DNA from: Bacillus sp. AFS059628
GTDB lineage: Bacteria > Bacillota > Bacilli > Bacillales > Bacillaceae_G
Direction of reading: 5' to 3'
Assembly (NCBI RefSeq): GCF_002571225.1
Contig: NZ_NVEC01000096.1
Coordinates: forward strand, 1 to 64,000
DNA: 64,000 bases
Shown: one piece after another, positions 11,605 through 52,890 of the stretch
Layout: each line of letters starts with the position of its first letter
Numbering within the stretch: the first letter of the stretch is position 1
The notes under the pieces: model-generated
Told to the model about the DNA's origin: nothing
Seen by the model: only the letters and a program-made list of their open reading frames with translations
Database searches by the model: none
Position numbers and translations under genes: made by a program

Positions 11605-11703
11605 ATGCGTGCTTTCGTTATTATCGCTTTAACTTTTTTAAGTGTGATTAGCTGGGATGCGTTTTTTAAAGATAAAAGTGATGATAAGAATACAACTGAA
11701 TAA
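11605..11703 (+). CDS. 32-residue membrane-anchored small protein
   Basis: This short ORF has a perfect AAAGGAGG site 8 nt before ATG 11605. It encodes a hydrophobic first half (RAFVIIALTFLSVISWDAFF) and a charged tail (KDKSDDKNTTE). The layout is a single membrane anchor with a soluble acidic end. No family is recognised. The ribosome site and amino-acid pattern argue that it is translated. Confidence 0.6.
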   Translation: MRAFVIIALTFLSVISWDAFFKDKSDDKNTTE

Positions 11704-11857: not shown

Positions 11858-11866
11858 TGATATAAT
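11858..11866 (+). promoter_or_regulatory. Extended -10 promoter of the yitT-type leader
   Basis: TGATATAAT is an exact extended -10 element (TGnTATAAT) about 34 nt before the first leader ORF. No good -35 is seen, as expected for an extended -10 promoter. Confidence 0.55.
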
Positions 11867-11899
11867 AATATAAATCTTGAAGGAAGGGATTTTGATATC

Positions 11900-11950
11900 A
11901 TGATCGCTCGAAGGAGCATGTGGCATCGTATTGACGAATCATACACGTAG
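11900..11950 (+). CDS. Leader peptide 1 of the yitT-type gene
   Basis: ATG 11900 follows a GAAGGAAGGG site and encodes MIARRSMWHRIDESYT, stopping at TAG 11948-11950. The stop is directly followed by CGTATTTTT, the 5' arm of a hairpin (11951-11959 with 11985-11994). The peptide is closely similar to leader peptide 2, so selection on peptide or codons is likely. Probably a regulatory uORF. Confidence 0.65.
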   Translation: MIARRSMWHRIDESYT

Positions 11951-11994
11951 CGTATTTTTCAGCTCAGATACTTTAGTCTAGCGAAAAAAATACG
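11951..11994 (+). promoter_or_regulatory. Leader hairpin 1
   Basis: CGTATTTTT pairs perfectly with AAAAATACG across a 25-nt loop. It starts at the base after uORF1's stop codon, so a ribosome at the stop would prevent it forming. There is no T-run after it, so it is not a classical terminator. Confidence 0.55.
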
Positions 11995-12008
11995 AGAGTG
12001 GGGAAATT

Positions 12009-12059
12009 ATGATTGCCCGAAGGATAATTTGGCAAAAAAAAGACTCTTCTTACACATAG
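12009..12059 (+). CDS. Leader peptide 2 of the yitT-type gene
   Basis: ATG 12009 follows GTGGGGAAATT and encodes MIARRIIWQKKDSSYT, stopping at TAG 12057-12059. It has the same length as leader peptide 1 and shares MIARR, the central W and the final SYT. The stop is again followed by CGTTTT and a hairpin. The similarity points to tandem duplication of a uORF-hairpin cassette. Confidence 0.65.
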   Translation: MIARRIIWQKKDSSYT

Positions 12060-12060
12060 C

Positions 12061-12099
12061 GTTTTGTTTAGGGCTTAATTGTTACTAGCTAAACAAAAC
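12061..12099 (+). promoter_or_regulatory. Leader hairpin 2
   Basis: GTTTTGTTTAG (12061-12071) pairs perfectly with CTAAACAAAAC (12089-12099). The identical 11-mer GTTTTGTTTAG recurs at 12140-12150, so the 3' arm has two possible partners, a switch-like arrangement. Confidence 0.6.
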
Positions 12100-12120
12100 A
12101 AAGAAGAGCAGGATTGCTAA

Positions 12121-12150
12121 ATGAAGAATCCTACTCCACGTTTTGTTTAG
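12121..12150 (+). CDS. Possible leader peptide 3 (nine residues)
   Basis: ATG 12121, with AGGA 7 nt upstream, encodes MKNPTPRFV and ends at TAG 12148-12150. The TAG is followed by TCGTTTT, much like the other cassettes. Its last codons are the second copy of the 11-mer that can pair with hairpin 2. It is short, so translation is uncertain. Confidence 0.4.
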   Translation: MKNPTPRFV

Positions 12151-12175
12151 TCGTTTTAAGACTTAAACTAAAACG
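12139..12175 (+). promoter_or_regulatory. Leader hairpin 3
   Basis: CGTTTTGTTTAGTC (12139-12152) pairs with GACTTAAACTAAAACG (12160-12175) with two bulged bases. The 5' arm overlaps the end of the nine-residue ORF. Confidence 0.5.
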
Positions 12176-12191
12176 AAAGTAGGGAGAATTG

Positions 12192-12233
12192 ATGGACGAG
12201 AGGATTATTCGTTATTTCTTCAGCGACATATAG
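12192..12233 (+). CDS. Leader peptide 4 of the yitT-type gene
   Basis: ATG 12192 follows TAGGGAGAA and encodes MDERIIRYFFSDI, ending at TAG 12231-12233. The context TAGCGTAGTTAG repeats the TAG-CGT junction of cassettes 1 and 2. It lies 99 nt before the main start and its stop abuts the last switch-like hairpin. Confidence 0.55.
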   Translation: MDERIIRYFFSDI

Positions 12234-12234
12234 C

Positions 12235-12315
12235 GTAGTTAGTTTTTTCGTAAACTAACTGAAGCTACATGTGAGCTCGTAGTTAGTTTACAACACAAAA
12301 AGGACTACTAACTAC
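12235..12315 (+). promoter_or_regulatory. Leader alternating hairpin in front of the yitT-type start
   Basis: Two identical arms GTAGTTAGTTT (12235-12245 and 12279-12289) alternate with two complementary arms, AAACTAACT (12252-12260) and ACTAACTAC (12307-12315). Pairings 1:2 with 3:4, or 2:3 alone, exclude each other. The last arm ends about 5 nt before the ribosome site AAGAAGGA of the main gene, so pairing 3:4 could affect its access. Confidence 0.6.
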
Positions 12316-12332
12316 GGAAAGAAGGAATAACG

Positions 12333-12995
12333 ATGAGGAACATCCAAAGTCGACAAATTATTAAAGAAGTTTTTATGGTTTTAATCGGTTCATTTATTTT
12401 AGCAGCAGCGCTATATCACATTCACTTCCAAAACCACTTAACAGAAGGTGGATTTGTAGGTATCGCACTATTCATCCAAAATTTTTATGATATTTCACCA
12501 TCTATTTCAACTGTAATGATGGATATCCCAATTATTTTACTATGTGCTTCATTGTTAGGTAGAAAAATGGTTGGCTATTCATTCTTAGGTTCAATTTCAT
12601 TCGGAGTATTTTATTCTCTTATGGAAAATTATTCTCCATTTACGGTCGATTTATCAAACAATTTATTTATAGCTGCAGTAGTTGGCGGTGCGTTAGCTGG
12701 TATTGGACTCGGTTTTATATTGCGATTTGGCGGTGCAACCGGTGGAGACGATATTTTAACAATTGTATTAAGTAAAAAAACACGTTTTACAATTGGGCAA
12801 ATTTTCTTCGTCTTTGACGCGATTGTTCTTGCGCTTTCATTATATTATTTAAATTGGACAGAAATCGCTTTTACTATTCTTTCGATTGCCGTACAGGCAA
12901 AAACATTGGATTTAATTTATTATCCAAAAACAGAAAAAGCAGAAGAAAAGCAACCAGTATCTATTCCAATGTCCAAAAAGCATGCAACAAATTAA
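12333..12995 (+). CDS. YitT/YczE-type membrane protein
   Basis: This 220-residue integral membrane protein has five or six membrane segments (about residues 12-29, 39-50, 57-74, 80-95, 106-128 and 155-180) and the glycine-rich family motif RFGGATGGDDILT around residues 131-143, which marks YitT-type proteins. The family is thought to be transporters, but the substrate is not established. It lacks the C-terminal DUF2179 domain of the longer YitT proteins. The long leader with four small ORFs and switching hairpins suggests that translation of the leader controls this gene. Confidence 0.8.
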   Translation: MRNIQSRQIIKEVFMVLIGSFILAAALYHIHFQNHLTEGGFVGIALFIQNFYDISPSISTVMMDIPIILLCASLLGRKMVGYSFLGSISFGVFYSLMENYSPFTVDLSNNLFIAAVVGGALAGIGLGFILRFGGATGGDDILTIVLSKKTRFTIGQIFFVFDAIVLALSLYYLNWTEIAFTILSIAVQAKTLDLIYYPKTEKAEEKQPVSIPMSKKHATN

Positions 12996-52629: not shown

Positions 52630-52890
52630 ATAAAAAAATCGCCCCTTCAAATAAGGGACGATTTTGATTATCGCGTTACCACCCTAGTTGCAGGCCAAAA
52701 AAGCCTACCACCTTATTTACATAACGGCTTAGCACCGTCTTTTCCCTTTTGAATACCATTCAATCGAAAAAAGATGCTCTAGGGGCGTAATTCGCGATCA
52801 TCTATGTGCTGATTTTCACCGGCCATCAGCTCTCTAAAACAGGGAAATGATCACTACTTCTCCCTTTCCACGCTCAATTATTCATATACT
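52630..52890 (-). ncRNA. T-box leader of tyrS
   Basis: On the minus strand the leader has the conserved T-box AGGGTGGTAACGCG (52672-52685) and a terminator GTCCCTT/AAGGGGC with a T-run (52633-52665). A stem-I-like region contains GAGAGCTGATGG and CGGTGAAAATCAGC. The triplet TAC in GAATTACGCCC (52787-52789) is a fitting tyrosine specifier. Confidence 0.93.

Follow-up and report, generated by a model that had tools for sequence, protein, structure and literature searches.

Here we analysed the leader of a short yitT gene of Bacillus sp. AFS059628, located in a window of 64,000 nucleotides (the whole stretch analysed, contig NZ_NVEC01000096.1, positions 1 to 64,000, to which all coordinates refer). 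The gene product matches the profile of PF02588, the sole Pfam family found, with 148.8 bits, above the curated cut-off of 24.3, and therefore belongs to the YitT family. In front of the gene, four mini open reading frames (ORFs) are located between 11900 and 12233, each preceded by a Shine-Dalgarno sequence (SD) and each ending in a TAG stop; three of them are referred to as upstream ORFs (uORFs) 1 to 3. The features of the locus are the following:

11861..11866, + strand: TATAAT, by its sequence the likely -10 box of the leader promoter, with a similar TATGATAAAAT at the equivalent place in Priestia leaders
11900..11950, + strand: uORF1, MIARRSMWHRIDESYT, TAG then CGT; the uORF1-type ending is kept in 95 ORFs of 93 leaders
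11951..11994, + strand: hairpin H1 with arms CGTATTTTT / AAAAATACG, starting directly after the uORF1 stop; obtained by folding, with two-sided changes in helices 4 and 5 of alignment A2
12009..12059, + strand: uORF2, MIARRIIWQKKDSSYT, TAG then CGT, a duplicate of uORF1; a second copy is also found in Priestia taiwanensis
12060..12099, + strand: hairpin after uORF2 with arms CGTTTTGTTTAG / CTAAACAAAAC, from computed complementarity
12121..12150, + strand: fourth mini-ORF, the 9-mer MKNPTPRFV, TAG then TCGT; its 3' end is the second copy of the 12-mer arm
12192..12233, + strand: uORF3, MDERIIRYFFSDI, last codon ATA, TAG then CGT; uORF3 is found in 20 of 20 leaders
12209..12221, + strand: uORF3 codons masking the yitT ribosome site (pairing with 12321-12333), a 13-bp helix in the window
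12234..12268, + strand: hairpin A1:A1', directly after the uORF3 stop, from complementarity and RNAalifold (columns 64-96 of alignment A1)
12278..12316, + strand: hairpin A2:A2', its arm identical in sequence to A1, just upstream of the yitT SD, from complementarity and RNAalifold
12321..12333, + strand: yitT ribosome site, masked by uORF3 codons, from complementarity, alignment and simulated ribosomes
12333..12995, + strand: yitT, short YitT membrane protein of 220 amino acids (P0001), PF02588

The four tiny ORFs with ribosome sites had been noticed in a preliminary description of this DNA, and their number exceeds what shuffled sequences give: counting SD-preceded mini-ORFs of 8-40 amino acids with a TAG stop, the leader holds 4, while 1000 dinucleotide shuffles gave a mean of 0.18 and none with three or more. 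The minimum fold of the 470-nt leader amounts to -133.2 kcal/mol (z -7.6), a value not reached by any of 100 dinucleotide shuffles. Likewise, the two related uORFs, in which TAG is followed by CGT and a hairpin, were found as described, with 35 of 51 bases identical between uORF1 and uORF2. The recurring arms do exist, though as 12-mers and not as the 11-mers first reported, with CGTTTTGTTTAG starting at 12060 and 12139 and CGTAGTTAGTTT at 12234 and 12278; by computed complementarity, A1' can alternatively pair with A2 instead of A1. In agreement with the earlier remark that no hairpin carries a proper T-run, a consensus scan yielded no terminator-like site within the leader, so that the intrinsic terminator expected of a transcription attenuator was not found between leader ORF and gene. 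The TATAAT at 11861..11866 was not among the sites returned by the promoter scan. A small hairpin, GCTC-GAAG-GAGC, is located at 11906-11917 at the start of uORF1, contains the SD-like AAGGAG and recurs at the equivalent place in relatives.

All 19 genomes of the family of P. taiwanensis contained a YitT match, with a best identity to the window of 66% and no closer genome in the sample. By its gene content, the window itself resembles the B. cereus group. P. taiwanensis itself (L001; YitT 64% identical) displays the same three uORFs, MIARRSIWQRKDLSYT, MVARSIWQKKDLSYT and MCDRIICYFFSDI, each with TAG. With detection allowing any stop codon, uORF1 and uORF3, both ending in TAG, were found in 20 of 20 leaders (the 19 family genomes and the window); uORF1 is present in two copies in the window and P. 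taiwanensis and in one copy in the other 18 family genomes, and the mini-ORF MKNPTPRFV is absent from the 19 relatives read. A covariance model, R1, built from module 1 of the leader (which includes the TAG) matched in 17 of 397 genomes of the first order, namely 16 of the P. taiwanensis family and G389, in whose family 2 of 16 genomes matched. Further matches were obtained in 18 of 250 genomes of the class and, with one match per genome, in 68 of 179 genomes of the order of G575, probably Paenibacillales (we infer the order and genus names of the relatives). Of these 68 matches, 67 were read, leaving out G674. Altogether 73 match loci were read (L088, L091-L162), and in 73 of 73 a uORF1 ending in W-x3-D-[LS]-S-Y-[TI]-TAG precedes a YitT gene, the ending being WKRYDLSYT in 56; they include all 67 loci read from the second order and two genomes of another family (L088, L091). 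Our filters require S-Y-[TI], but lost no matching locus (20/20 and 73/73 passed). An exact peptide-level pattern with fixed TAG occurred at 19 places in 18 of 151 class genomes, all of them preceding YitT, with zero places in the backward control; it added two genomes (G514, G422), which end in WKQFDLSYI and likewise carry it upstream of YitT. An earlier motif search allowing one mismatch had been noisy, with hits in 95 of 397 genomes, about 16 of them from the P. taiwanensis family, and no uORF was seen outside the family among the 30 loci opened, in which minus-strand loci were read unturned.

The spread of the leader follows the short form of YitT. Each of the 13 leader-bearing genomes tested contained a short YitT (frames of 219-257 amino acids, E 5.5e-47 or better). 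Of 15 first-order genomes without a model match, 7 contained only longer frames (289-326 amino acids, E 9.4e-36 or weaker) and 8 contained none at 1e-30, and no YitT match at 1e-35 was found in 20 second-order genomes without a model match, for which the leader-bearing genomes served as positive control. An unrooted tree was computed from 103 distinct YitT rows, drawn from 113 loci and the window. In it a 100/100 branch separated the 86 leader-bearing rows from the 17 long ones, although the tool warns of long branches meeting. The position of L088 and L091 (genomes G389 and G401) inside the Priestia group (98/90) points to a joint transfer of leader and gene, which likely moved as a unit. We considered the leader as a general feature of YitT genes and rejected this: the long YitT genes, which have an extra C-terminal part and belong to the same Pfam family by similarity to P0001, differ in this respect. 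Across the 19 loci read (L054-L072, open frames of 289-352 amino acids), their leaders are short and plain and lack uORFs of this kind, although two of these loci each carry one unrelated TGA mini-ORF. A plasmid or phage element was rejected as well, since the 475-nt leader had no match in 72,556 plasmid and 50,697 phage records; the peptide pattern gave zero places on viral contigs. Structural searches of YitT gave an AlphaFold model, computed from two sequences, with a mean predicted local distance difference test score (pLDDT) of 38 and one weak match among solved structures (E 0.57).

uORF1 is conserved at the level of its peptide. Our sample consisted of 95 uORF1-type ORFs (45 distinct) from 93 leaders, with 40 distinct sets of the last 13 codons, in which W, D, S and Y are each present in 40 of 40 sets and the last residue is T in 38 and I in 2. 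At the same time four codons are used for S, two for Y, two for D, five for L and four for T, i.e. the amino acids of the ending are kept while the codons vary. At codon -12, all sets but one (39 of 40) have AGG while other Arg codons vary, and therefore a nucleotide-level constraint acts at that site too. TAG is the stop and C the next base in 95 of 95 uORF1-type ORFs, the TAG count being conditional on detection because the covariance model includes TAG and the peptide pattern fixes it; the search for uORFs in the loci read accepted any stop. Peptide end and stop are kept together at the amino-acid level, as looked for in a termination-arrest peptide. uORF3 ends in ATA-TAG-C in 20 of 20 leaders (10 distinct); exceptions to TAG-C are uORF3 of L088 and L091 (TAG-A, outside the 20) and the fourth mini-ORF of the window (TAG-T). 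The preliminary description had named lack of conservation as grounds for abandoning its proposal, and both the peptides and the stop-hairpin junctions are kept in relatives. The ATA ending uORF3 (12228-12230) is a minor Ile codon, accounting for 14 of 147 Ile codons in six window genes. Many Paenibacillus-type leaders (L092-L162) carry a second mini-ORF after uORF1, starting with M-R-R or M-N-I-R-R near CGAAGG, whose stops vary and which in some cases runs into the yitT start.

At the RNA level, uORF3 emerged as part of the same scheme, which goes beyond the preliminary description: its codons at 12209-12221 can base-pair with the yitT ribosome site at 12321-12333. This helix comprises 10-15 bp in 20 of 20 leaders, and its register pairs 97.7% of cells in distinct rows vs 38-80% when slid. 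Between clades, both bases of one pair are exchanged (U-A to C-G), and other pairs change via G-U. Dinucleotide-shuffled uORFs matched the observed helix length in 0-24 of 3000 cases (six leaders). For module 1, RNAalifold paired the S-Y-T codons with the next SD unprompted (columns 57-61 : 122-126). The module 1 structure pairs 92.7% of cells vs 35-50% when slid, a comparison that favours it as it was derived from the alignment used to score it. Within it, 24 cells changed on both sides vs a shuffle mean of 10.1, and its covariation score was matched by 0 of 500 shuffles; its pair-type count was not above shuffles (266/500). In alignment A2, which leaves out the window uORF2 row with its extra segment, two-sided changes are seen in helices 4 and 5 (hairpin H1), and helix 3 (S-Y-T codons : SD) has none. 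Taken alone, the longest ungapped pairing of uORF1 codons with the next SD does not stand out. In Paenibacillus-type leaders, the arm after the uORF1 stop covaries with the next SD arm, with a mean helix of 6.8 for own and 5.1 for swapped arms (18 distinct arms, 0 of 2000 permutations equally high). Covariation analysis had been recommended as a check for B. cereus-group leaders; run here on leaders of relatives, it did reveal covarying pairs.

We additionally simulated ribosomes as approximately 31 nt blocked from pairing. With a ribosome at the uORF3 stop, the unpaired fraction of the yitT site rose from 0.12-0.43 to 0.48-0.90, an increase observed in 20 of 20 leaders, while it stayed low in these leaders with a ribosome at the uORF3 start. 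A ribosome anywhere in uORF3 codons 5-13 opened the yitT site as well (means of 0.70-0.80 vs 0.27). The leader thus shares with erm-type attenuators a short ORF that precedes the gene and carries an SD of its own, and a masked gene site that is computationally freed by a leader ribosome in 20 of 20 window and Priestia-family leaders, and weakly so in Paenibacillus-type ones. In its anatomy the leader follows translation attenuation, pairing of arms 1:2 and 3:4 competing with 2:3. Conservation, covariation and folding with simulated ribosomes together support the earlier suggestion of a repeated switch that depends on translation and whose mutually exclusive pairings extend as far as the main ribosome site, so that the preliminary interpretation as a whole is partly supported.

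We propose a model, which we consider probable, of a translation-attenuation relay driven by ribosomes that presumably pause at the UAG stops of the uORFs. In the default state, uORF3 codons would mask the yitT site, and the uORF3 site would be hidden by the final codons of the uORF in front of it and by the hairpin that starts right after the stop of that uORF. A ribosome finishing uORF1 or uORF2 would pause with UAG in the A site, the nascent W-x3-D-[LS]-S-Y-[TI] slowing release by release factor 1 (RF1) in the UAG-C context, which is a weak stop context. By covering the masking strand, the paused ribosome would expose the next ORF, which would then be loaded; once on uORF3, a ribosome would in turn unmask yitT, with A1' pairing with A2 instead of A1. 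From the strict C-terminus and UAG-C we infer that the ribosome is held at termination; the pause, its exact site, its RF1 dependence and the signal prolonging it are deduced in the same way, and for the last we favour a small molecule in the exit tunnel, plausibly a YitT substrate. More tentatively, W-x3-D-[LS]-S-Y-[TI]-UAG-C may represent an undescribed, old family of termination-arrest peptides that drives, in two orders of Bacilli, a ribosome relay of several steps. Every step would be gated at an RF1-only stop, and the switch would read release of the nascent peptide, and thereby a metabolite or stress relieved by YitT, rather than decoding or a drug stall.

Several results weigh against this relay. 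As a ribosome at any of uORF3 codons 5-13 opens yitT, a pause at the stop codon is unneeded at that step, and the uORF3 peptide is less conserved than the uORF1 type. Synonymous shuffles of uORF3 match the observed helix length in 6-35%, therefore peptide and pairing are entangled at uORF3. With a ribosome on uORF1, the uORF3 site becomes only partially accessible (mean rising from 0.32 to about 0.5). Direct opening of yitT by uORF1 in Paenibacillus-type leaders was weak and was rejected: a ribosome at the uORF1 stop lifted yitT access by more than 0.1 in 19 and lowered it in 1 of 70 distinct leaders, which include L088 and L091, where uORF3 intervenes. A two-step version for these leaders, via the second mini-ORF near CGAAGG, was partial: access to the next site increased by over 0.1 in 30 of 64 and decreased in 4. 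At its second step, yitT rose in 47 of 64; this version fits better than the direct one, but taking the best of up to 14 ribosome positions favours it.

Among the alternatives, a drug-inducible attenuator of the erm/ABC-F type, in which a ribosome-targeting antibiotic would stall elongation in a uORF and YitT would relieve the effect, e.g. by export, appears rather unlikely to us. Its plan would match ermA with two leader peptides (PMC8274638). In further sources, TCDB is noted to assign a YitT-family protein of S. aureus to a family of novobiocin exporters (PMC8761152), the label on which a link of YitT to export rests, a role of YitT as an ABC protein is doubted (PMC9408558), and YitT-family substitutions occur, among many others, in macrolide- or pristinamycin-selected mycoplasmas (PMC10240068, PMC13148045). 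However, the leader is spread across whole families and not on plasmids or phages, and its invariant part sits at the stop. The macrolide stall motif K/R-x-K/R is absent on inspection from the aligned uORF1 ending, and the target of novobiocin is not the ribosome. Plain translational coupling, by which the uORFs would tie yitT to ongoing translation without arrest or ligand, is in our view unlikely: opening of yitT by any ribosome in the second half of uORF3 is what it predicts, but it leaves the kept W, D, S, Y and T and the 95 of 95 UAG-C unexplained. That the leader senses termination capacity, with slow UAG reading holding ribosomes when RF1 is scarce, unmethylated or inhibited and the peptide only tuning the response, we judge improbable. 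Every ORF counted, 95 of uORF1 type and 20 of uORF3, has UAG as its stop, and UAG pausing despite RF1 was reported for an in-vitro library (PMC6238534), but a strict peptide is not required for such a sensor and no link of YitT to termination is known.

An RNA-only element (riboswitch, thermosensor or transcription attenuator) with incidental ORFs would agree with the strong folding and covariation, but is very unlikely given coding conservation with synonymous change, the lack of terminator-like sites in the leader and of an Rfam match. In Rfam 15, neither the window leader nor the loci of seven relatives matched at gathering score, and the best two matches of the window leader (E 0.7) are on the opposite strand. 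Sensing of tRNA charging, one of the signals suggested in the preliminary description, is the least credible: an attenuator responding to arginine or tryptophan starvation could draw on the AGG at codon -12, on the one Trp per uORF1 and on the genes adjoining yitT in the window, which we take to be argG and argH homologues. It is disfavoured because regulatory codons do not occur in a run and the residues that are conserved sit at the stop; moreover, the AGG and Trp codons are far from the masking codons, uORF3 lacks Trp, and D, S, Y and T need not be kept.

The earlier statement that no such leader is described for YitT agrees with our searches of Rfam and of the open-licence full-text literature, where none was found; a term search of the uORF4u paper (PMC10219788) gave no mention of YitT. 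If the ribosome relay holds, it would reveal a family of arrest peptides that is widespread and unusually strict in its stop codon, and a relay of at least two steps in front of a gene not known for resistance. It would also provide a handle on the function of short YitT, since the pause-prolonging factor is probably tied to what YitT handles, and the peptide end is defined well enough to be taken directly into toeprinting and inducer screens. Elsewhere in the window, a 32-amino-acid ORF (MRAFVIIALTFLSVISWDAFFKDKSDDKNTTE, 11605-11703, + strand) with a strong SD, aaaggagg, just upstream possibly encodes a small membrane protein, and a T-box leader at 52651-52879 on the minus strand (151.8 bits) is the sole Rfam match of the window at gathering score.

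Among known systems, TnaC and SpeFL combine a conserved C-terminal peptide with a stop codon as well, but act in gamma-proteobacteria and through Rho-dependent transcription rather than SD masking. There, arrest occurs at termination, as we propose here, with SpeFL reported to block RF1 and TnaC RF2 (PMC8429421). The W-x3-D spacing recalls W12 and D16 of TnaC, whereas W and D lie nearer the stop here. MifM is a longer, membrane-inserted sensor, while the peptides here comprise 13-21 residues and no membrane segment. As with MifM, whose stalling regulates the downstream membrane-protein gene YidC2 (PMC4423224), and other Bacillus arrest peptides, a leader peptide that would stall precedes a membrane-protein gene. 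The tandem arrangement itself resembles ermA (ErmAL1/ErmAL2; compare ermBL/ermBL2), for which one model in print has a stall on ErmAL1 opening ErmAL2 and a stall on ErmAL2 opening the gene (PMC8274638). In contrast to the macrolide-induced stalls on resistance genes in that system, the conserved part of the leader described here ends at UAG and its target is YitT.
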